A stretch of 22,320 nt of DNA from a virus. Shown here one piece after another: positions 2,714 to 16,716 of the stretch. Every line of letters starts with the position of its first letter. Positions within the stretch are counted from its first letter, which is position 1. Both the position numbers and the translations under genes were made by a program. The stretch covers positions 1-22,320 of the IMG/VR virus record IMGVR_UViG_3300025767_001100. The stretch is one strand, 5' to 3'. The notes below the pieces were generated by a model. It worked only from the letters and a program-made list of their open reading frames with translations. It searched no databases and was not told the DNA's origin.

Positions 2714-3066
2714 TGACGTTATTTATTACTATTAACTCTGATAATAAAATAACTTCGCAAGGACAAATAGACTCACCAATGGTTGAAACTCCTACAACAA
2801 TTTTAGGTATTAGACCTAATACTTATGATACGCATTATGATCCGGTTAATAACACTACATATGAGTCAGAAGAATCTTATGCGGGTAGACAATTAAATAA
2901 ACGCAATGTTTATCTTACACAATCAGATTACACACAAATATCTGATGCTACATTTCCAGGAACTTTAACAGAGTGGCAAACCTATCGTCAACAGTTAAGA
3001 GATTTGCCTACTAACAGTAATTGGCCTTACTTAGAACCAGAGGATTGGCCTACAGAGCCAAGTTAA
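2713..3066 (+). CDS. Tail fibre assembly chaperone-like protein
   Basis: This 117-aa acidic protein has a C-terminal half that looks like the phage tail assembly chaperone (APC) family: a hydrophobic/Asp segment (LTQSDYTQISDATF), a Trp-x-x-Tyr-Arg-x-x-Leu-Arg-x-Leu-Pro helix (EWQTYRQQLRDLP) and a Trp/Pro-rich end. Proteins of this type are encoded straight after fibre genes and help fold or attach the fibre. The first ~70 residues are beta-rich and were not recognised. Translation starts at an ATG overlapping the fibre stop, with an AAGGAG element 9-15 bases upstream. Family assignment is by eye; the role is inferred from position. Confidence 0.65.
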   Translation: MTLFITINSDNKITSQGQIDSPMVETPTTILGIRPNTYDTHYDPVNNTTYESEESYAGRQLNKRNVYLTQSDYTQISDATFPGTLTEWQTYRQQLRDLPTNSNWPYLEPEDWPTEPS

Positions 3067-3068
3067 AT

Positions 3069-3539
3069 ATGATAAGAAAACTAGAGGACAATGATGTATT
3101 CGAAGCTATTACGCTAATGAATAAATCAACAGAAGACAATGAGTACTTTGGGTATAAGCGTAATGAAGCTGTATGGATAAAGTATTTTGTTGGACTAGTA
3201 GAAAAACAAAAAGAAACCCCTCATGCACTTGTAATAGGCGACTATATAAATGGAAAGCTAAGGGGTTTTCTTTCTGCTGAATCTTTTAATAACTACTATA
3301 CTAACGAATATATTATGGACGTTAAGGATTGTATTGTTGATCATGACTACAATAACGCTTTTACAGTTTATAGACTATTCGATGCCATGATTGCACATAC
3401 TAAGGAGTATGGTGGTAAACATTGGCGAGCCGACTCAATTCGTAGCGAGCAAGAAGCTATGGATTATGGTCGTTTCTTGCAACGCCGTTATGATGCGGCA
3501 ATCCATGTCTCAGTTAGAGGCGTAATACAGGAGAATTAA
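3069..3539 (+). CDS. GNAT-like acetyltransferase family protein
   Basis: This 156-aa protein is laid out like a GNAT N-acetyltransferase: helix (DNDVFEAITLM), helix, a beta strand with a turn (VIGDYINGKLRGFLSA), a strand ending in VDH, a helix where acetyl-CoA would bind (NAFTVYRLFDAMIAHTKEYG) and a final strand with an Arg/Tyr-rich end. The canonical Q/R-x-x-G-x-G/A acetyl-CoA loop is absent, so catalysis is uncertain. I chose the ATG at 3069, two bases after the preceding stop, over an in-frame TTG at 3021 inside the previous gene. The Shine-Dalgarno upstream is weak, which suggests coupling. Small GNAT-like proteins are reported near structural genes in marine podoviruses, but their target is not evident here. 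A structural role of the fold is possible. Confidence 0.5.
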   Translation: MIRKLEDNDVFEAITLMNKSTEDNEYFGYKRNEAVWIKYFVGLVEKQKETPHALVIGDYINGKLRGFLSAESFNNYYTNEYIMDVKDCIVDHDYNNAFTVYRLFDAMIAHTKEYGGKHWRADSIRSEQEAMDYGRFLQRRYDAAIHVSVRGVIQEN

Positions 3540-4970: not shown

Positions 4971-7900
4971 ATGAAACTCAAAAACTTTACTCAGAAGGAC
5001 AGATATGGGAACATGACATCTTATGACTTCTATGAGTCAGATGATAACATGGGTGTCCCAGAGATGCAGGGTATTCCTCAACATCCTGGAGGTCCTAAGG
5101 GGACTGACACTGTTCCCGCATGGTTAACTCCTGGGGAGTTTGTGATGAATGCGGAAGCTACTCGTATGTTTGAACCTCAGATTGAACAAATGAATAACGC
5201 TGGTCGTGCCGTACAAGCACAACAGGGTGGTACAATCCCTGAGTATGCTGCTGATGGTGGTCAAATGCCAGCAGCTAAAATGGATGGTAATACGTTTGCT
5301 AAAGCAGCAATGGCAGTGGGATTACCTACAGATAATGCTACGTTAAACAAACTAGTTAATTTAGTTAATCAAGGTATGAGTGTTCAAGAAGCAGCAAAAA
5401 GAATCGCTAGTGTTCCACAGTACTCAGCTAATGGTGGCCCTGTGTACCTTGCAGAAGGTAGTGGTGGGTTCTTTGATAAGCTGTTAAATATGTTTTCTAA
5501 TGATGAAACCCCAAAAGTACCAGCTGCAACTCAAGCTGTAGTACCCCCATCAAGTTCTAGTCGCGCTGATCGTGTTGCTAATTTAGTTAATGCAGCAAAA
5601 ACAGATGGTCCAACTAGACCAGACCCAACTATGTCTAATCAGATGTATATGGATTTTCTTAAAAAGAAAGAAGGGTTTCGTAATGAAGCCTATTTAGATT
5701 CTGCAGGTGTCCCAACAATTGGTTATGGGTTTACTGAAGGCGTACAAATGGGTGATACTATTGATGAGAAGACTGCTAATGATAGACTTCTTAAAGAGAT
5801 GGCAAAGACTGATCAAGACTATAACAAATTAGTAACTGCTGATCTTAATCCTAATCAACAAGCTGCTGTTAAGTCACTACTGTATAACATTGGTGGACCA
5901 CAGTTTGCTAATAGTAAAGCACGTGCTGCACTTAACACAGGTGACTTTGAGTCCTTTAAGAAAGAAGCTGCAGAGTTTCGTATGGCTGACGGTAAAGTAA
6001 TCCCAGGATTAGAAAACCGTAGGCGTGATGAGCTAGAGTTGTTCTTTAAGCCTTACAAGGCAGACAGACCTGATACTTCTAATGCCCCTATGTCAATGGT
6101 TTCTCCAGAAGAGCAAGCTACTTTTCAGAGAGATGTTGAAGCAGCACAGAAGGCTACTCGTGAGCAAGGCATGTATGATCCTGATGGAAACATGGAAGCT
6201 ATTCAAACTGGTATTGATCAAGCTCAAATTCTAGAAGATCAACGGCGTATGCAACAAGGGCAAAAACCAGTGCCTTCAATGATTGGTGCTGCAGTTCCAC
6301 CAAAACCTACTGATGATCCATTAGTATCTACAGTCCCCCCTAGTAATACATCGCGGGATGATCGTGTTGATGTGCTAAACAATGCTGCTAAAGGTGGGAA
6401 TACTGTAATAGGAACACTTCAAGGTAATGATGTTTATCAAGATGATTTAGGTGAGTACATTAACACACCTGAGGGTCCTGTGTATTTAGATGGTAATCAA
6501 CTACAAGCTATGACAAAGGCACCAGCTTCAGTCCCTTCTAGTAGTACTGTACCTGCAGTCCCTCCTAGCAATACATCGCGGGATGATCGTGTATCTAAAC
6601 TAACTGATGCTGCAACTGTCCCTAGTGCTTCGTCTAATACTGAAGTCCCATTACCTGATGATGATATATTTTCAACACCAGCTATGAGCACTGATCCAAC
6701 AGCCTCTATGCTTGCACGACAACAAGCCTTGGGGTTAGGCCCTAAAGATGTTAAACAACCTGATGTAAATGTAACCCTTAATCAAGGAGAGTATGGTGTA
6801 AACGATACTATCATTAGAGAAGATGCTAATGGTAATCCTATTACTTACAAATGGGATTCATCTAAAGATGCTTATGTTGACAATGAAGGTCTTGAGTATA
6901 ACCGTGGAATTGGTGAACGTGTATCTGGTTTATTTAAATCAGAAACTGTGGAAAACGCTGAACCAGAAACAGGTGATACACAAATTGGAACACTCAATGG
7001 TAATCCAGTGTATATGGGACAGGATGGTAAGCCATATGTTATGGAAGACTTAGAAGTTCTTGGGACATCTGCAGGTGTTCAAAAGATGAATATCCAACCT
7101 TGGCAAACCGATGACATTAAAATGTTACCTAAAGAAAACCGCCCAGTGGCTGGTCCTAAAACCCCTTCTCCTAAAGACAAAGATGGTTTAGTTCCACTAC
7201 CTATGGATACTTCTATCCCTGATGAACTTAGTGGTACACCAATGGACTCAAGTGCTGGTGTGCCTAAACTGGAAGAAGCACCTCCTCCACCTACAGTTCT
7301 TCCTGATGAACTACAACCTGGTCAAGAAATGGACAGTAATAAAGGAATAGCACTTAAAGAAGTTATTAAAAAGACTGAAGGTGATAACACTACTACTGGT
7401 CAAACAGGAGAAGCTGCAACAAAGGCAGGTGAAACAGCACCACCAGAACAGATAGACGAAGCTGAGTCTTTCTTATCAGGTATCTTTGGTGATCTCTTTG
7501 ATGCAGATGAACTTAAACGTATGGCTATTATGTATGTTGGTTCTCGTGTAATGGGTGGGTCTCATACTGGATCTATGAACTTTGCTGCTAAACAATATGT
7601 TAATCGTGTTGATGCAAAGGCAGCTGAAAAGAAAGCTTTAGCTAAAGAAGAGCGTCTTGATAAAAAAGCTGCTAGAAAAGAGTTTAATAAAAATGTATTT
7701 AAACTTGAAACAGAACGTAACTTCTCTCCTAAATCTATTAAAGCATGGAAAGATTCATACGATCCTAAAACAGGAACAGCAGATAGTTCTTTACTAAGCG
7801 CTATAGTTAAACCATCACCAATGAACATTGAAGGTCCAGCACAACTATGGTACCCTGAAGGTGGTGGTAAGCCAATCCTAGGTATAACGGTTAAGGTTGG

Positions 7901-8699
7901 GAATAAAGAAACTGGAACGACTACAATGGTTATTGATCCTAAAACACGTGAGCAAATACCAACCTATCTGTATCATCAAGATCGCTCTAGGGTAAAGAAC
8001 ACTGATGAGTATAAAGCGGCTTATCAAAAAGACTCTGCTATATATACTACAATGCTTGCAGACCTTCAAGCTAAACAGTTTAAGCCAGGGAATAAGGCAG
8101 CTAACACTGAAGATTATAGACCAACTGATATTACAGCATCAGTATCAGGTCCTAACATTGCTAAATGGCAACGTGATCACGGTGTCGATCCTAGTCTTAT
8201 GCCTCAGATTCTAGAAAGCGCATATGCAAATATGGTTGCTTCTGGTCAAAAGAGAACTGCTGACGAAGGTAAGTCTGTAAAACATAAGAACATTGAAAAA
8301 TTCTTAGACGGTGCTTATATGCCAGCGTTGGTTGGTGATGGATCAATCTTTAATGTTCCTGGTAAAGATAAACCAGGGGACTTTAAAAGGATTTCAGAGT
8401 TAACTAACAATCTTGTTCGTCAGGCTAGGGCTAATCCTAAACAGGATATTAAACCAACAGCCAAGGACCATGAAGTTGCTAAGCATATTTATACGCAACT
8501 TAAAAATGAGTTCTTAAATGGTTCATATTCAGTACCTGACCCTGATCGTAATAACCCTAATGAAACTAAAATGCAAAACATATGGACTGACGAAGAGTCA
8601 AAAGCAGACTTCCTTAAAGAAGCTGAAGAAAGAAACATATCTGCATTTGAGTTATTCATTGAGCAAAAACAAAAAGCTTATAATAGAAAACCTGTATAG
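4971..8699 (+). CDS. Large internal virion protein with embedded GH24 lysozyme domain
   Basis: This 1242-aa protein occupies the position of T7 gp15. Residues ~38-67 carry a segment typical of phage tape-measure and internal proteins (DTVPAWLTPGEFVMN). Residues ~220-370 form a T4-type GH24 muramidase domain. E234, D243 and T249 give the family spacing E-8-D-5-T in the context KKKEGF...LDSAGVPTIGYG, and a later NRRRDE helix closes the domain. It would cut peptidoglycan locally during genome entry. Three repeats of the form PPSxxSRxDRVxxLxxAA lie at 191-210, 455-474 and 530-549, and two copies of IGTLxGNxVY start at 480 and 672. Residues ~872-908 are a Lys/Ala/Glu-rich probable coiled coil. The C-terminal ~330 residues were not recognised. 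Start: ATG at 4971 after GGAG at 4961-4964. No signal peptide is present, which fits ejection rather than secretion. It is not a free lysis endolysin. Confidence 0.85.
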   Translation: MKLKNFTQKDRYGNMTSYDFYESDDNMGVPEMQGIPQHPGGPKGTDTVPAWLTPGEFVMNAEATRMFEPQIEQMNNAGRAVQAQQGGTIPEYAADGGQMPAAKMDGNTFAKAAMAVGLPTDNATLNKLVNLVNQGMSVQEAAKRIASVPQYSANGGPVYLAEGSGGFFDKLLNMFSNDETPKVPAATQAVVPPSSSSRADRVANLVNAAKTDGPTRPDPTMSNQMYMDFLKKKEGFRNEAYLDSAGVPTIGYGFTEGVQMGDTIDEKTANDRLLKEMAKTDQDYNKLVTADLNPNQQAAVKSLLYNIGGPQFANSKARAALNTGDFESFKKEAAEFRMADGKVIPGLENRRRDELELFFKPYKADRPDTSNAPMSMVSPEEQATFQRDVEAAQKATREQGMYDPDGNMEAIQTGIDQAQILEDQRRMQQGQKPVPSMIGAAVPPKPTDDPLVSTVPPSNTSRDDRVDVLNNAAKGGNTVIGTLQGNDVYQDDLGEYINTPEGPVYLDGNQLQAMTKAPASVPSSSTVPAVPPSNTSRDDRVSKLTDAATVPSASSNTEVPLPDDDIFSTPAMSTDPTASMLARQQALGLGPKDVKQPDVNVTLNQGEYGVNDTIIREDANGNPITYKWDSSKDAYVDNEGLEYNRGIGERVSGLFKSETVENAEPETGDTQIGTLNGNPVYMGQDGKPYVMEDLEVLGTSAGVQKMNIQPWQTDDIKMLPKENRPVAGPKTPSPKDKDGLVPLPMDTSIPDELSGTPMDSSAGVPKLEEAPPPPTVLPDELQPGQEMDSNKGIALKEVIKKTEGDNTTTGQTGEAATKAGETAPPEQIDEAESFLSGIFGDLFDADELKRMAIMYVGSRVMGGSHTGSMNFAAKQYVNRVDAKAAEKKALAKEERLDKKAARKEFNKNVFKLETERNFSPKSIKAWKDSYDPKTGTADSSLLSAIVKPSPMNIEGPAQLWYPEGGGKPILGITVKVGNKETGTTTMVIDPKTREQIPTYLYHQDRSRVKNTDEYKAAYQKDSAIYTTMLADLQAKQFKPGNKAANTEDYRPTDITASVSGPNIAKWQRDHGVDPSLMPQILESAYANMVASGQKRTADEGKSVKHKNIEKFLDGAYMPALVGDGSIFNVPGKDKPGDFKRISELTNNLVRQARANPKQDIKPTAKDHEVAKHIYTQLKNEFLNGSYSVPDPDRNNPNETKMQNIWTDEESKADFLKEAEERNISAFELFIEQKQKAYNRKPV
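5541..6617 (+). repeat. Three dispersed 60-bp repeats encoding PPSxxSRxDRV segments
   Basis: Copies at 5541-5600, 6333-6392 and 6558-6617 encode V-P-P-S followed by a Ser/Arg/Asp-rich core and L-x-x-A-A. The second and third share an almost identical stretch around ATACATCGCGGGATGATCGT; the first is diverged. They flank the lysozyme domain and sit in Pro/Ser-rich linkers, so they may be binding segments rather than folded domains. Confidence 0.8.
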
Positions 8700-8714: not shown

Positions 8715-11700
8715 ATGTCGATGTTTGATACTATGGCCCCCATGCCTAATAGACAACTAGAAGGTACAAGCTTTAGTATTATAGATGCTGATACTGCTGT
8801 GAACACTGACACTGGGGAGTCTTATAGATTCCCTGGTGTTGATGCACCTGAAGTACAAAAGTTTCTAGGTACTGAAAGATACACTACTGGTGAAGCTGGT
8901 GGTGAAGCAACAACAGAAGCTGTTTATAATCTAATGAATAACCTTGGGTATACAAACCCTAAGCCAAGACTTGATGAGAATGGTCAAGTACAAATGGATC
9001 GTGGTGGTACTCGTATTATTGCCGACTGGTATAATGATGCGGGTGAAAACTTTGTTGACAGAGGTTTGTCAGAGGGTATCTATAAACCTACTGAGTTCTC
9101 TAATGATGCTCAAGATTTAATCTATTCTCTTGGTCAAGCTAAAAGAGATCGTGAAGATAGACTATATGATCCTGCAGCTGAACCATCTGTTGTTACTGAT
9201 GATTGGGCTACAGCACGAGGTATGATTGCTGACGCTCTAGAGAAAGAAGGGTATCAACAGTACGGTCTTAAACGTATAGCATCTGATGAAGCTGAACTAG
9301 CTGCTGCTAAAGAAGCTGGGATGCTACAATTCTACGATCAAAACCAAGTTGAAACACGTTCAAGTGATCGTACACTTATGAACGAAGCACTAAACCCTTG
9401 GTCAGATAACTTTGAAAAGTCTCTTATAGGTATCCAGGAAAGCTGGAGTGGCCTTAAGAATATGTGGGGTGAAGCCACAGATAATGAAAACCTTGCAGAG
9501 GTAGGTCGTCTAGGTGTTGAAAGACAACGTGAACGTCTTGCAAAGTACGGGACTAGTATTGTAGACTGGAAAGATATCGATAGCTTTAGTGACGGTATCG
9601 ATTATGTTATGAACAACGCTGCTATGTCTTTACCTTACATGGCTGTGATTGGTGCATCTGCACTTGCTGCCCCTGTTGTAGGAACTGCAGCGGGTGCTTT
9701 AGGTGCTGGGTCATTACTGACAAGCGGTGTAACAATGGCTACAACTATGCTTGCCCCTGCTTCTATTTATGCTTCTCAAACTTGGAATGAGATGGAAGGC
9801 AAAAAGAATATGGGTGTAGCTGTTGGTTCAGGTATTATACAAGCTGCCTTTGAACGTATTGGTCTTGAGATCATTGTTGGTAAAACATTCGGTTCTTTTG
9901 CACCAAAGAAGCTTATGCAAGAAGCAGTAGAAAACTTAGTAACTAAGGGTGTTAAGGGTGTTAAATACAGCAGAGCAGAAGCTACTAAAATAGTTGGTAA
10001 TGCAACCCGTCAGGCAATTGCAGAGTACACAGGTGATGCTGCTAAAGCTGCTGCTTCACAGGTTGCTGCTAAACAAATTGTTAAAAACCTTTCTGCTCGT
10101 GCCTTAAAAGGTGGTGGCGGTGAGATGTTAACAGAGGGATTACAAGAAGCTGTAGCATATACCGGAGCTACTCTTGGATCCGATAAGGTCTTTGACTATA
10201 ATGAATTAGCTGATCGTATGATTGCTGGCGCTGTTGCTGGTGCTACTCTTGGTACAGCTTTCTCTGCCCCTGGTGCTATCTATGATGTGGGTGCCTGGAA
10301 AGATTTACAAGTTCGTAAGTTACCTGCAGAAGCTAAACGGTTATCAGAAGAAGGTGCACGTGCTGAACGTGAGCGTGTTGAGAATGGGCAGATTGCTTAT
10401 GATCTAGCTAAAGCTGAGGAAACACAACGACAATTAGATGCAGGTGAAACTGTAAACATGGTTGAGGTTGAAAGGGTTGCTGAAGAAGCAAGAGAAAAAG
10501 GGACTCGCGTTCAAACTATTGATGAACTCTTAGAAGAAGAACAAGAATATCTTGCTGCAATGAAAAGTAATAACTTACTTACTATGGATCAATTTAAAGT
10601 GGAACAAAAAGCAGCTAAAGATAGTGGTGCAAAAGGGTTTCCTAGTTTTGAAAAGTGGAGAGCTAACAAGAAAAAAACTTCTAAAGTAAAAGGACAAGAT
10701 GTAGAAGTTAAAAGATCTATGGTTTCAGATATGAATGATCGTAAAGCTGAACATGAAAGAGTTGAAAAAGATAACACCCTTGCTGGTGTTGTTGGTCGTG
10801 CTCTTGAAGGGTCTGTCAAACTTGTAAGGAAACTAACAAGGACTGCTGTACCAGATAGATATAGAGATAAAAAGGCAGGTAATATTCTTGGAGCTATGGT
10901 TGATTCAAGTCATTCAAAATCTAATTCTGGTAGAGACTTAGAGTCCTATAAGTTTAATCTTGTATCTATGTTTAAGAATATGGTAAGTGTACCAGAAAAC
11001 TTTTATGCTTCCTTAAACAATAACAAGATTACTAGCAGAACAAAAAGAGCAGAGATTAGTAAACAAGTATATGCAATCTTAAAGAACATAATCAAAAACA
11101 AAAGTGGTCTACCTGATATAAGTAAGATACCACAAGATGGTGAGGTTGTTACTTTAGATGGTATGACTTTCACTATGACTGGTCGAGATCAAATTGTACA
11201 GTTAGCTCAAGACTTAAACAAGTTATCAGATCTAATGCACAGTCGTCAGGCTAAGTATACTATAGATCCAAAGACTGGAAAACCTACTCTTGGTTATATA
11301 CAAAACTATTTGTTTAAGTTTAAGTCATTAAATAAGGCAGCTATTTCTGCTGATCGTGCAAAGTTTGAAGCCACATTAGTAGATCAATATAAACAAATAA
11401 CACCTGCTATGGCAAAAGAATTAACTGATAAGATACTTGAGAATGATCAGGTTAGTTCTATTAATGATGTAGTAGATGAAACCTTTAACGTAACTAAAGG
11501 TGGTATTGTACCTGGATCACATCGTAAAAGATCTCTTGCTATGTCAGAGAACCCAGAGTTCGATCAGTTTATGGAACAAGATATCTTTGCAAATGTTTCT
11601 CAGGCAGCTAAGTCTGCTGCTAGATTTGAAACACATCGTAAATACATTGGTCAAAACGGAGAGGTCATGGCATCTCTCCTAGATAAAATGGAGTATGATG

Positions 11701-13139
11701 AAGGTGTACCAAGAGAAGAAGTAAATGCTATTGCTTCTAGGCTTGTGGATTATCTTAACGCTGAATCTGGTAACTATAAAAGACCTACTTCAGATGCAGG
11801 TAAGAAAGCTGTAGCTGCACAAAAGAACCTTATGTTCTTAGCTACATTTACAATGCTTGGTTTGGCTACAGTTGCTTCTCTTGTAGAGATAGCTTTGTCA
11901 GGTCGTGCTCTTACCTTTAATCAAATCTATGGTCGTGAAGGTAAAACTTCTGGAAGAACCAGTCTTAATTCTTTTGGTAGGGAGCTTGCTAAAATGTTAG
12001 CAGACCTTATGGGATTTGCTGGTGACACTGTTCGTTGGCAAGACAAAGGTGTTGGTACACAATCAAGAGGTCAAGAGATCATACGTGATTTAGGTTACTA
12101 TGAATGGGATGTTGGTGCTGCTACTGTGACAGGTGTGTCTGAAGTTAATCCTCTACACCAGAAATGGTATGAGTTATTCTTTAAGATGACAGGTCTTACA
12201 GGGTGGACTAACTTTACTCGTTCTATGAGAGCTTCTATTGCTAATGATTTTATGTTTGATCATATTAATAAAATTGTAGAATTTAGGCAAATGAAAAGAG
12301 CCAACCCTGAACTTGTTAAAGATAATGATATCCAAGAGTCTGAAGAAATGCTTCGTAATCTTGGTGTCAATGTCGATGACGTAGCTCGTATCTATGAGCA
12401 AATGGGTGGCGATATGTCAGCGGTTTTAAGTGAAGCAGATGATGCAATCTTAACAGAAAACATGAGGACAGGTACGTTTAATTTTGTCAATGATGCAGTT
12501 GCCCTACCTACTGTTGGTAACAGACCACTGATCTATCAGGATCCTAGGTTTGCTTTACTTACACAGTTCCAGGGATTCATGGCTACATTCTCATCTAATC
12601 ATATACCTAAAATGTATGAGCAGTATATCAAGCGTGGTAACCCATCAATGAAGTACAATGCTTTTGCTTTAATGACTACTATGATTATGCTTGGGTTTGC
12701 TTCTCAGTATCTTAAGGATCTTATCAAGTATGGTGGAAGCGGTAAGCAAATGATGACTGCTGGTAACCCTTACCTTGATACCTCTGAGTATATTCAACGT
12801 GGTATTAGATCTTCAGGATTACTTGGTGTTGCAGATCGTTTAATTGATACTGCAGGTTATGGTCTTTACGATGATGGAAGAACTAAAGGTGGTCTTGATT
12901 GGGCATGGAAAACAATTTCTGGTGAAGCCCCAGCAGCTGGTATTATTAATAGAACTGGAAGAGTTGCAGAAAAAGTAGCTGAAGGAGACTTTGGTGGTGC
13001 AGGTCAACAGTTAAGTAAGATGACACCAATCTTAAGTATCTTCGGTGCTGAAAGAACTGGTCAAGTAATAGGTGATACGGCTACTGCTATCTCTGATGCA
13101 GTACCTTCATGGAGCTTTAAGGAGAAAAGTAATGAGTAA
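8715..13139 (+). CDS. Large ejection protein (gp16-like) with N-terminal SNase-like nuclease domain
   Basis: This 1474-aa protein is the largest in the window, as T7 gp16 is among T7 internal core proteins. Residues ~18-127 match the staphylococcal nuclease fold. The segment IIDADT, then YRFPGVDAPE, then DRGGTR followed by a Gly-x-x-(F/V) helix, lines up with SNase D21, R35, D40, E43 and R87 as D26, R38, D43, E46 and R100. Hydrophobic or amphipathic segments lie at ~304-352, 364-390, 502-522, 1038-1061 and ~1310-1330, suited to forming a channel through the cell envelope. Residues ~530-630 are charged and probably coiled. The C-terminus has the FALLTQFQGFMATF pattern typical of podovirus internal proteins. 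No lytic transglycosylase motif was found; muralytic function seems to sit in the preceding protein. The start ATG at 8715 follows AAGGAGA by about 7 bases. The virion role is well supported by size and context; nuclease activity is inferred. Confidence 0.8.
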   Translation: MSMFDTMAPMPNRQLEGTSFSIIDADTAVNTDTGESYRFPGVDAPEVQKFLGTERYTTGEAGGEATTEAVYNLMNNLGYTNPKPRLDENGQVQMDRGGTRIIADWYNDAGENFVDRGLSEGIYKPTEFSNDAQDLIYSLGQAKRDREDRLYDPAAEPSVVTDDWATARGMIADALEKEGYQQYGLKRIASDEAELAAAKEAGMLQFYDQNQVETRSSDRTLMNEALNPWSDNFEKSLIGIQESWSGLKNMWGEATDNENLAEVGRLGVERQRERLAKYGTSIVDWKDIDSFSDGIDYVMNNAAMSLPYMAVIGASALAAPVVGTAAGALGAGSLLTSGVTMATTMLAPASIYASQTWNEMEGKKNMGVAVGSGIIQAAFERIGLEIIVGKTFGSFAPKKLMQEAVENLVTKGVKGVKYSRAEATKIVGNATRQAIAEYTGDAAKAAASQVAAKQIVKNLSARALKGGGGEMLTEGLQEAVAYTGATLGSDKVFDYNELADRMIAGAVAGATLGTAFSAPGAIYDVGAWKDLQVRKLPAEAKRLSEEGARAERERVENGQIAYDLAKAEETQRQLDAGETVNMVEVERVAEEAREKGTRVQTIDELLEEEQEYLAAMKSNNLLTMDQFKVEQKAAKDSGAKGFPSFEKWRANKKKTSKVKGQDVEVKRSMVSDMNDRKAEHERVEKDNTLAGVVGRALEGSVKLVRKLTRTAVPDRYRDKKAGNILGAMVDSSHSKSNSGRDLESYKFNLVSMFKNMVSVPENFYASLNNNKITSRTKRAEISKQVYAILKNIIKNKSGLPDISKIPQDGEVVTLDGMTFTMTGRDQIVQLAQDLNKLSDLMHSRQAKYTIDPKTGKPTLGYIQNYLFKFKSLNKAAISADRAKFEATLVDQYKQITPAMAKELTDKILENDQVSSINDVVDETFNVTKGGIVPGSHRKRSLAMSENPEFDQFMEQDIFANVSQAAKSAARFETHRKYIGQNGEVMASLLDKMEYDEGVPREEVNAIASRLVDYLNAESGNYKRPTSDAGKKAVAAQKNLMFLATFTMLGLATVASLVEIALSGRALTFNQIYGREGKTSGRTSLNSFGRELAKMLADLMGFAGDTVRWQDKGVGTQSRGQEIIRDLGYYEWDVGAATVTGVSEVNPLHQKWYELFFKMTGLTGWTNFTRSMRASIANDFMFDHINKIVEFRQMKRANPELVKDNDIQESEEMLRNLGVNVDDVARIYEQMGGDMSAVLSEADDAILTENMRTGTFNFVNDAVALPTVGNRPLIYQDPRFALLTQFQGFMATFSSNHIPKMYEQYIKRGNPSMKYNAFALMTTMIMLGFASQYLKDLIKYGGSGKQMMTAGNPYLDTSEYIQRGIRSSGLLGVADRLIDTAGYGLYDDGRTKGGLDWAWKTISGEAPAAGIINRTGRVAEKVAEGDFGGAGQQLSKMTPILSIFGAERTGQVIGDTATAISDAVPSWSFKEKSNE
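13119..13124 (+). promoter_or_regulatory. Ribosome binding site deciding the start of the putative virion RNA polymerase
   Basis: AAGGAG lies 7 bases before the ATG at 13132, which is itself 8 bases inside the end of the preceding gene. An earlier in-frame ATG at 13072 has no such site and would add 20 residues in a Leu-rich out-of-frame reading of the upstream gene, so 13132 is preferred. Confidence 0.8.
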
Positions 13140-16100
13140 ACGTGGTCAATCATCTGCTGCTACAATAGCAGAGACAGCAACTCAAAAACTAGCAAGAGAG
13201 TCAGCATTAGCACCTGTTGTCCGAGAAGAACAAGAAGCAGTGGGGGTAGAAGAAGCCCCTGCTGCTCAACCTGTTCAGTTAACAATGTTTGACAGTATGG
13301 AACCAATGCCGGATACCCCTGAGGTTACCGATGAGGTTACCCCTGAAGTGAATGTACGTACTGTAGAAGAAGGTGCAGACCTATTTGGTGAGCAAGAGTA
13401 TAGAGAAAGCACAACCACTGGTCCACTTGTAGTGACACCAGAACAACGAGCAGAAGGGGTTGTGCCTCGTGGTCAAGAAGAGGGTCGTGTAGACCTTTGG
13501 GATTTTCGCAATAACTATTTTAATAGATCTGAACAACAGCGTAATAGGTCTATGGTGTCAGCAAGACAAGCTAATCAAGCCGTTGCTGATGATGGTGGCC
13601 TTAGTGCACGTGTGTTAAACCTAGCAGATCAAGTTGAAATAGGCAACGTTGGATTAGGAGGACTAGGTGTTAACGCTCAAGATAACGTAGCCCTCAATGT
13701 ACTAAACACTGTTAACGCTATTAACCCAGAGACTCGTAAACCAGACAGGGATTTCTTACAAGTAGCTGGACTAGTTGTAGAAGATGCTATGGCTACTATG
13801 TCTATGCAAGATGGTGTTGAAGCATATGAGTTAATGGAAGATGAGGGTGATACTTTTCAAAGTGTAAATAAAAAAGGTAAGCCTGTAACAAAAGTTGTAC
13901 CTAAAGCACAAGGCCGAGTTCAAATTGGAAGACGCATCCATAATGAATACCAGAAAATGAAAGGCGTTGAGAACCCAGTAAGTATTTCTAAAGATGATGC
14001 TGAAACCTTAGGTGATCTAGCTAAAGAATTATATTTTGCTGCTAATGAATCTGATGTTAATCCTATCATTGAGCTAATGCATATTGATAAGAACGATGGT
14101 AAGAGACCACAAAGGGCATTTAGAATCACACCTTATGGAGAAACCATGTTATCTGCTGGTACTTGGAAGAGAGCAAAGATGTTCCCTAAAGCCAAGATCA
14201 GACCTTCAAAGAGTGCTTTGAAAAAAGGTAAGCTGGTTGGTGAACCAGAGCAGGTAGTAAGAAATATCTCTGGTGCTCAAGGATCTGTAGTTGGTGCTAA
14301 ACAAATCAATGAAGCAAAAGAAAACATGTCTACAATACCTAATTATATACCACCATCTAGACTTAAGATATTATTAGCAACAGTAATGCCTGTGTTGACG
14401 GGTCAGATTACTGCAGAGAATGATGTTTTTGGATTAGCTACTATAAACCATGTGGGTCTTGATAAAAAGAATGAACTTCGTGCTCAAGCTAAACGTAAAA
14501 GACTGCCCCAGTTAGAAGAAGACCAAGAGGTTGAACGTAACTACAGTCAGTTAGTTAATAATTTAGCACAGGATGTTTATGGTATTGCATTAGAAAGACA
14601 TGGTGCAAACTTCCTTACTTATTATACGCAAGCATTCTCTGGTCGTATATCAGATGCTCAGCAGAACACACTTAACCCTACTCGTTCTAAGACTGCTAGG
14701 TTTGTTACAGCTAATGCTGTTCCAGCCAGGGTAGGTAATCGTTCAGCATCTAGTAGACGATATGAAAAAGCATTACGTCAGATGTATGCTATGACTCTTG
14801 TAGAAGGTGCAGATATATTGATACCAACTGAACGAGAGTTTATGTTGGAAACAAAATCAGCACAGCTATATGAGTGGGGAGATGTATTAAGAACTGCTAT
14901 GGATGCCATTTCTGATGCCGATGTCCAGGCGGTTGCTAATGCAATTGAACAAGGTGTTCCACTGATACTGGCAAATGGTCAACCTAATCCAGACTTCCCA
15001 CAGTTACCTAAGTGGGGATCTAAGATTGACCCTGAGGCTAATGCAGAGTTACTCAAAGCTATTAAGGATAAAGGTGAAGACGGTCAAGTATTTATAGACG
15101 GTCTTATTGACTTTGCTAATTACCAAGATAAAAGAAATAACAGAAACTCTGATGGAACTTATGAACATCAATCATTCTTTAATGCTATGATGGATGGTAA
15201 GACTAATGGTCTTGCATCTAATGGTTTACAGATGGGTGTCTATGAGATGGCTTTTAAAACTGGTATTCTTAGACAGGCTGGATCAAAGACTTTCTTAGAT
15301 GGTAATGTAGATATACGTGATCAACTTGCAGCAAACCTTATAGAAGAACTTAATAAGTCATTCAGAGGTACAGAACTAGATAGACCTGAGACCCTCAGAG
15401 ATATACTAAGTGTTGCACGTACTGTGTATCAAGATCGTGCGCTTAATAAACAAACCACGATGACGTTTCCATATGGTCGAGAGTTAGAAAGCTTTAAGTC
15501 TGATATTGAAGAACGATTTAATGTTCTTTTACAAGAGTCCCAACAACAAAAACAATTAGATATTGATAATGGTTTTTCAGATCCTGATTCATATCTTGTT
15601 GATTGGGTTGAGTCTCTTAATAGAAATAAAGTTTCTAACTCAGTAATCATTGAAACACTTCATGGTAAATACATCGATGGTCTTATGGCTACATTATCTC
15701 CTGAAGTTATTGCATCAAGAGCAATGATGCGTAGTGTTGCACAGATGGCTGGTATATCTAATGAGTTGTTCACTATTGTTTCACCTACAGGTTTTGAGAT
15801 TAATCTTGGAGGTTCTGTTAGTACAGGGCTAGATCAAGATGCTTCTAAACAAGTAAAGGTGTGGTCTCCTAAAGACAAATCTGTTAGGCCAAACCCGAAA
15901 GAAAAACTTCCTATTGGTGAAATGAAAAAGACTGAACCAGTTGTATCAAAGTATGGTGAAGTGTTTACAGCTGCTGCTGAAAAGAGATATACAAATATTG
16001 ATTCAGAGGGTAATGAAGTTATTACCTATGTCCCTGGTGATGTAGCTTATGGTGGATCTGTTCCGGCCCCTATGCATTCAATTGATGCAGCAACCGTTGT

Positions 16101-16716
16101 CAAAACCATGACAGGTAAATCATGGGATAAACTTAAAGCTAACTCTGGTGGTCATCCATATGTTCATACAGTGTATGATGCATTTAAAGTAGACGCTATG
16201 TCTTATGACACTATCCTTGAAGAAGCTAATAACAACTGGATTGATGTTAATATGAAATGGTCTTACCTTGAAGCAGCTAAGGATTCATTGTCAGAAATTG
16301 ATAGGCAATTTAATGAACGCTTTAAAGGTGTATCTGATAGTCAAGTATTAACGAACCCCACTGATACTTCTGTTATGAGGTATCTGTTAGAGTTTGATTC
16401 CAACAGTAAGGCATTGCCTGACGGATCACCTACATTTGGTTATCCTAATCTAGCTGGTAAGTTATCTAAGACACTACCCCCAGGAACGGACATTGAACCT
16501 GTCCTCCGTGGTGTTTTAAAATCGATTAATATCAAAGAAGATATAACCCTTGGGGATCTTAAACAGTTCCGAAACACAATGAAGAAGTCTCTTAATATTG
16601 AATCGAGACTGAACTCTATGATTAAAGAAACTAATGATCGTAAGGTTATATTAAAAAGAGAAATTGCTAAAGCAATACGGGAAGGTAGACCTGTGTATCA
16701 GTACTACTCTCACTAG
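13132..16716 (+). CDS. Putative virion-associated single-subunit RNA polymerase, divergent
   Basis: This 1194-aa protein is the last gene of the virion module. Read by eye it contains, in order, the landmarks of T7-family RNA polymerases. A GR motif occurs in TQAFSGRI (R505; compare DWRGR of T7). Motif A is MDGKTNGLASNG (D688; compare FDGSCSGIQH). Motif B is R769-x3-K773-x3-M-T-x2-Y781-G782 (RALNKQTTMTFPYG), identical in spacing to T7 R627, K631, Y639 and G640. A VSPTGF segment (883-888) resembles T7 VTPDGF. Motif C consists of HSIDAA (982-987) and VYDAF (D1016; compare T7 HDSFG, D812). Deviations are Ala at the T/D position of T/DxxGR and Tyr instead of His before the motif C Asp. Motif A lacks the DYSxIE of A-family DNA polymerases, arguing against that. 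The N-terminal ~480 and C-terminal ~175 residues are unassigned. Position and size suggest packaging as in N4 vRNAP; this is inference. Confidence 0.78.
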   Translation: MSKRGQSSAATIAETATQKLARESALAPVVREEQEAVGVEEAPAAQPVQLTMFDSMEPMPDTPEVTDEVTPEVNVRTVEEGADLFGEQEYRESTTTGPLVVTPEQRAEGVVPRGQEEGRVDLWDFRNNYFNRSEQQRNRSMVSARQANQAVADDGGLSARVLNLADQVEIGNVGLGGLGVNAQDNVALNVLNTVNAINPETRKPDRDFLQVAGLVVEDAMATMSMQDGVEAYELMEDEGDTFQSVNKKGKPVTKVVPKAQGRVQIGRRIHNEYQKMKGVENPVSISKDDAETLGDLAKELYFAANESDVNPIIELMHIDKNDGKRPQRAFRITPYGETMLSAGTWKRAKMFPKAKIRPSKSALKKGKLVGEPEQVVRNISGAQGSVVGAKQINEAKENMSTIPNYIPPSRLKILLATVMPVLTGQITAENDVFGLATINHVGLDKKNELRAQAKRKRLPQLEEDQEVERNYSQLVNNLAQDVYGIALERHGANFLTYYTQAFSGRISDAQQNTLNPTRSKTARFVTANAVPARVGNRSASSRRYEKALRQMYAMTLVEGADILIPTEREFMLETKSAQLYEWGDVLRTAMDAISDADVQAVANAIEQGVPLILANGQPNPDFPQLPKWGSKIDPEANAELLKAIKDKGEDGQVFIDGLIDFANYQDKRNNRNSDGTYEHQSFFNAMMDGKTNGLASNGLQMGVYEMAFKTGILRQAGSKTFLDGNVDIRDQLAANLIEELNKSFRGTELDRPETLRDILSVARTVYQDRALNKQTTMTFPYGRELESFKSDIEERFNVLLQESQQQKQLDIDNGFSDPDSYLVDWVESLNRNKVSNSVIIETLHGKYIDGLMATLSPEVIASRAMMRSVAQMAGISNELFTIVSPTGFEINLGGSVSTGLDQDASKQVKVWSPKDKSVRPNPKEKLPIGEMKKTEPVVSKYGEVFTAAAEKRYTNIDSEGNEVITYVPGDVAYGGSVPAPMHSIDAATVVKTMTGKSWDKLKANSGGHPYVHTVYDAFKVDAMSYDTILEEANNNWIDVNMKWSYLEAAKDSLSEIDRQFNERFKGVSDSQVLTNPTDTSVMRYLLEFDSNSKALPDGSPTFGYPNLAGKLSKTLPPGTDIEPVLRGVLKSINIKEDITLGDLKQFRNTMKKSLNIESRLNSMIKETNDRKVILKREIAKAIREGRPVYQYYSH

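Follow-up and report, generated by a model that had tools for sequence, protein, structure and literature searches.

What is a nuclease-like domain doing at the front of a phage virion protein that probably reaches the host cell ahead of the genome? The window analysed here, a 22,320-base IMG/VR virus fragment, raises this question through a 1474-residue protein. A preliminary description of the sequence had placed a staphylococcal nuclease (SNase)-like domain at its N-terminus (8772-9095, i.e. residues 20-127), citing the pattern IIDADT / GVDAPE / DRGGTR and five active-site positions (D26, R38, D43, E46 and R100). It had made the assignment depend on an OB-fold SNase match and on the retention of E46 and R100 in homologues. 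The domain is borne out by profile comparisons, by its predicted fold and by a bridging homologue; the pattern and all five positions are present and align with SNase, the predicted structure matches the SNase OB-fold, and E46 and R100 are invariant in all relatives with an intact N-terminus. Coordinates are collected in Table 1.

Table 1. Features of the window discussed in the text.
Feature	Position	Strand	Basis
Upstream virion protein (1242 aa) with a phage lysozyme as its murein hydrolase, at residues 231-354	4971..8699	+	PF00959 E 2.7e-32
Large virion (probable ejection) protein with N-terminal SNase domain, 1474 aa	8715..13139	+	ORF list; PHROG 6958; C-terminal matches
SMFDTMAPMP, N-terminal peptide common to the SNase protein and the downstream virion protein	8718..8747	+	10-mer comparison
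SNase (thermonuclease) domain, residues about 14-131	8754..9107	+	hhalign; AlphaFold2 model; relatives
IIDADT, residues 22-27; D26 = SNase D21 (Ca ligand), T27 = T22	8778..8795	+	sequence, alignments
YRFPGVDAPE, residues 37-46; R38 = R35, D43 = D40 (Ca ligand), E46 = E43 (general base)	8823..8852	+	sequence, alignments
DRGGTR, residues 95-100; R100 = R87	8997..9014	+	sequence, alignments
Downstream large protein of the same block, contains TMFDSMEPMP	13132..16716	+	ORF list, peptide comparison

The SNase domain and its conservation

Single-sequence scans of the window domain against Pfam, NCBIfam, PHROGs and PADLOC gave no significant SNase match (the calcium-activated nuclease model of NCBIfam reached E 0.16), and phmmer against the PDB did not find SNase; the first reading of the sequence thus caught what automatic annotation overlooks. 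Profiles were more sensitive. When the window family, with Aeromonas phage phiA008 left out, was aligned by hhalign to five plasmid thermonucleases, the match had an E of 9.2e-8 (prob 94) with all catalytic residues aligned, versus E 0.4 (prob 0.15) for a control using another part of the same proteins. Because these thermonucleases had been retrieved by searching with the phiA008 domain, the similarity of phiA008 to them is biased, whereas the result for the window family is not. A profile search of the PDB built from the five closest sequences gave no match; with CRP-7 added, SNase ranked top, yet with an E of only 0.04, and with phiA008 included it was found at E 6e-7.

The alignment of the catalytic residues with D21, R35, D40, E43 and R87 of SNase was seen in the PDB profile search, in the hhalign comparison with the five thermonucleases and in the alignments of relatives, and D24, T27 and D95 likewise align with SNase residues. 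The domain thus has the OB-fold topology and active-site equivalents of staphylococcal nuclease / thermonuclease (PF00565). It differs in lying within a 1474-residue virion protein, in being too diverged for the Pfam model and in having a longer segment between VDAPE and strand 4. DRGGTR also has one residue more before the second arginine than the common DxxGR; R100 is positioned by the ADW/ADF/GDL match after it, and the L011 group has the same DxxxxR form.

An AlphaFold2 model of the domain has SNase topology (mean pLDDT 63, core about 80-90). All fifty of the fifty best Foldseek matches in the PDB are SNases (E 5e-3 to 2e-2), and VIA-align gave Z 7.3-8.1 over about 100 residues at an rmsd of about 3.5, the top score of 8.1 being against 1snd (98 residues, within residues 18-130). 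We place moderate confidence in the predicted fold. Each of these lines of evidence is moderate alone, and jointly they are convincing.

Relatives were gathered from viral contigs (IMG/VR) and phage records. All the relatives read whose N-terminus is intact (L001, L002, L017, L018, L020, L011, L012, L014, L021, L022, CRP-7 and phiA008) have DxDT, R-x4-D-x2-E and the second arginine. The five catalytic residues are invariant in 11 of the 11 sequences of the relatives' alignment as well as in CRP-7 and phiA008, and this invariance reaches IMG/VR contigs of about 30 per cent domain identity. Among seven less redundant relatives, 14 of the 114 domain columns are invariant and include all five catalytic positions (P 1.4e-5, treating columns as independent). 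A chance motif was considered and rejected on this statistic and the hhalign match to thermonucleases.

In four close pairs, dN/dS was 0.05-0.11 for the domain, rough values from 115 codons, versus 0.10-0.23 elsewhere in the protein. Purifying selection on the domain is equal to or stronger than that on the rest. Together, the invariant active site and the low dN/dS favour a working enzyme, and the structural leftover that had been offered as one explanation is unlikely. To judge from the sequences, the domain is most likely retained as an enzyme, with its activity predicted.

Two annotated relatives, CRP-7 gp34 and phiA008 pA_gene0066, combine C-terminal homology with an N-terminal SNase domain bearing the same active site; in both cases the annotation is just "hypothetical". 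The phiA008 domain, our bridging homologue, scores 35.7 bits, above the Pfam SNase cut-off of 21. It matches cellular thermonucleases at E 1e-12 (a set recruited with phiA008 itself) and the window family at E 1e-4, and may have been acquired separately. JB8, VPp1 and the KPP25-like phage CRPAP1904 have the C-terminal region in common with the window protein, with no SNase motifs at their N-termini and no Pfam SNase match; its absence from these homologues suggests that the domain is an exchangeable module. A tblastn search with the SNase domain alone found no phage record, a scan of bacterial genome contigs found no relatives, and no relative of CRP-7 gp34 was found on plasmids. The protein, the largest of those that would be ejected, belongs to a clade of marine, short-tailed phages (podoviruses) that encode a T7-type RNA polymerase.

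The carrier protein and its gene block

The reading frame is open and contiguous over all 1474 codons in the ORF list. Its sole significant family match is PHROG 6958, "virion structural protein" (E 1e-16), in the C-terminal part. Virion status of the family comes from PHROG 6958/30152 and from homologues annotated as structural or particle proteins, and PHROGs places it under "head and packaging". By tblastn, the C-terminal region recurs in the Pseudomonas phages KPP25, phiR18 and JB8, in Roseobacter phage CRP-7 (E 4e-20) and in phiA008. The matching KPP25 proteins are annotated as structural, and in Vibrio phage VPp1, where the region was found from the relative L017, the annotation is particle protein.

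The window holds tail genes, a plus-strand block of genes for large virion proteins and, on the minus strand, genes for ThyX, a primase-helicase and a T7-type RNA polymerase; the block stands between the tail genes and the polymerase, in an order resembling T7 14-15-16. The gene directly upstream of the SNase protein encodes a phage lysozyme domain in the window, L002 and L011, and the upstream neighbour in CRP-7 has a pesticin-like lysozyme domain. In the lineages checked, therefore, a murein hydrolase exists, on the adjacent virion protein. Hydrophobic segments of the 1474-residue protein lie at residues 311-335 (the first, in a region of about 300-345) and 1039-1068, with equivalent first segments at about 300-410 in relatives, and the SNase domain is N-terminal to the first of them. 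The downstream protein probably starts at the ATG of MSKRGQ; the ORF list begins it at an alternative GTG (13072).

T7 gp16 has an N-terminal lytic transglycosylase domain, binds DNA during entry and refolds on ejection, after which its N-terminus is located in the periplasm (PMC8954989). The window protein is like gp16 in gene-block position, in size and in having an enzyme domain at its N-terminus with a mostly helical body after it. Unlike gp16, it has an SNase in place of the transglycosylase, and the phage lysozyme is on the upstream protein. A comparison with PDB sequences gave no match to any solved ejection protein, gp16 included, and the C-terminal structure model (pLDDT 42) is too poor for a comparison with gp16. 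The exchange of SNase for transglycosylase is thus best described as a positional equivalence. The protein would probably be ejected into the cell before the phage DNA. The earlier statement that the nuclease "enters the cell first" is weak, given that the gp16 N-terminus ends in the periplasm; the SNase domain may therefore act in the envelope, not the cytoplasm.

A similar exchange is known in one unrelated phage hub. Gp147 of Bacillus phage 0305phi8-36 has an N-terminal transglycosylase, and its BtI1 homologue has at this place an SNase domain whose use is unknown (PMC2147016). The BtI1 baseplate hub is a precedent for a cell-entry virion protein whose N-terminal transglycosylase is replaced by an SNase (PMC2147016), although it is a myovirus-type hub from a Gram-positive phage-like element and the carrier proteins are unrelated. 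Polyvalent proteins (PMC5512222) are likewise large, thought to be injected and composed of several domains including enzymes, whereas the window protein has one recognisable enzyme domain only; a word search of the main text of that paper found no SNase. Searches of openly accessible literature turned up neither a description nor a test of a podovirus ejection protein that bears an SNase. The enzyme slot at the front of podovirus ejection proteins may be modular, with a nuclease where T7 has a murein hydrolase.

Possible roles at infection

SNase requires millimolar Ca2+, an ion whose free concentration in the cytoplasm is far below that in the periplasm and in seawater. It is a paradox that an intact general nuclease should probably be kept next to the phage's own genome while the particle is in Ca2+-rich seawater. 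The sequences establish the domain, its active site, conservation and position, and the neighbouring hydrolase; that the protein is ejected, that the enzyme works, that Ca2+ controls it, where it acts and what it cuts are inferences. Our main reading, to which we give a probability of roughly one half, is a Ca2+-dependent SNase-type nuclease in an ejection protein that would be silent in the virion and cut nucleic acid in the envelope at entry. In the virion, the domain would lie beside the genome, silenced through its fold state, its burial inside the core or a shortage of Ca2+. At infection, the ejection protein would exit the head and refold. The SNase domain, located ahead of the first hydrophobic segment, would come to lie within the cell envelope or immediately inside it. 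Envelope Ca2+ would then activate it to cleave the nucleic acid it encounters, be it competing phage, foreign or host DNA/RNA, with the murein hydrolase function carried instead by the preceding virion protein. SNase artificially targeted into T4 heads cleaved the packaged DNA (PMC7697877), so strict silencing in the capsid must be assumed, for example with the domain held unfolded. If active, the domain would be a virion-delivered nuclease working before any phage gene expression. The more specific proposal of an entry-stage weapon, a Ca2+-activated general nuclease that is silent until refolding and then, within the envelope or close to it, destroys the DNA of competitors or of the host, is a tentative one. 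CRP-7 is a cultured phage that carries the domain and allows these ideas to be tested.

Three other explanations have to be weighed against envelope cleavage at entry. The OB-fold might be non-catalytic, either a relic or a part of the ejection apparatus that binds nucleic acid or the cell wall. Inactive SNase-like folds exist, such as some SN domains of Tudor-SN, and the replacement of the common DxxGR by DRGGTR and the failure of a single-sequence Pfam scan to detect the domain point the same way. We nonetheless consider it unlikely, since relatives with intact N-termini all retain the calcium ligands, the general base and both arginines although most positions vary, and since dN/dS in the domain does not exceed that of the remaining protein. 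In another alternative, with which the intact active site agrees, the nuclease would act in cis: as the phage DNA is ejected or packaged, it would trim or nick the leading end of the genome, or release DNA that the core retains. Within the virion the protein should lie next to the genome end, and it is the positional equivalent of gp16, a DNA binder during entry (PMC8954989). SNase, however, lacks sequence specificity and would be ill suited to processing ends; packed into T4 heads, it cut DNA throughout (PMC7697877). The JB8, VPp1 and KPP25-like homologues do without the domain. All of this makes a cis role doubtful.

Least probable, in our view, is that the protein stays behind, for instance as an internal scaffold, and that its nuclease acts in assembly or on DNA from damaged heads. 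The "head and packaging" category would fit such a protein, as would the lack of direct homology to a proven ejection protein; the murein hydrolase on the neighbouring virion protein is, however, what an entry apparatus would be expected to have, the two hydrophobic segments are compatible with membrane insertion, and the gene order resembles that of T7 14-15-16.

A peptide shared by adjacent virion proteins, and other observations

The N-terminal peptide of the SNase protein has a near-identical counterpart within the N-terminal 70 residues of the protein encoded downstream (from 13132). The pairs covary between phages: SMFDTMAPMP/TMFDSMEPMP in the window, and SMFDSIQPIE/SLFDSITPIE and SIFDRIAEKP/SIFDRIAAQP elsewhere. 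Gene pairs bearing the peptide begin at 6001 and 10707 in L002 and at 8001 and 12100 in L017. The best 10-mer score of each pair was reached in 0 of 300 shuffles, and the peptide was not seen in CRP-7. It may serve as a docking or loading peptide. QLSLF/QLTMF also resembles a sliding-clamp-binding motif.

Further domain-like features were noted in the window and in relatives. A small tail-region gene (3021-3539), also present in L011 and L012, looks by eye like a GNAT acetyltransferase; a Pfam scan gave no confirmation. A Hint (intein- or Hedgehog-like) stretch, CFPEGTQISMADDTTKNIEDIQVGDKVLAF...HTYIAEDLRVHN, lies in a virion-region protein of three relatives (L002:2-2092, L011:1758-3593 and L012:1834-3672), and the L017 counterpart is without it. 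The C-terminal parts of the downstream large protein contain a segment that looks YbiA-like by eye (IWYGSGENSGLSNLALRPFKDKEGRVYQTVEHAYQTLKSGKFD) in the same three relatives (L011:11283-14306, L012:11169-14279 and L002:10707-14864).
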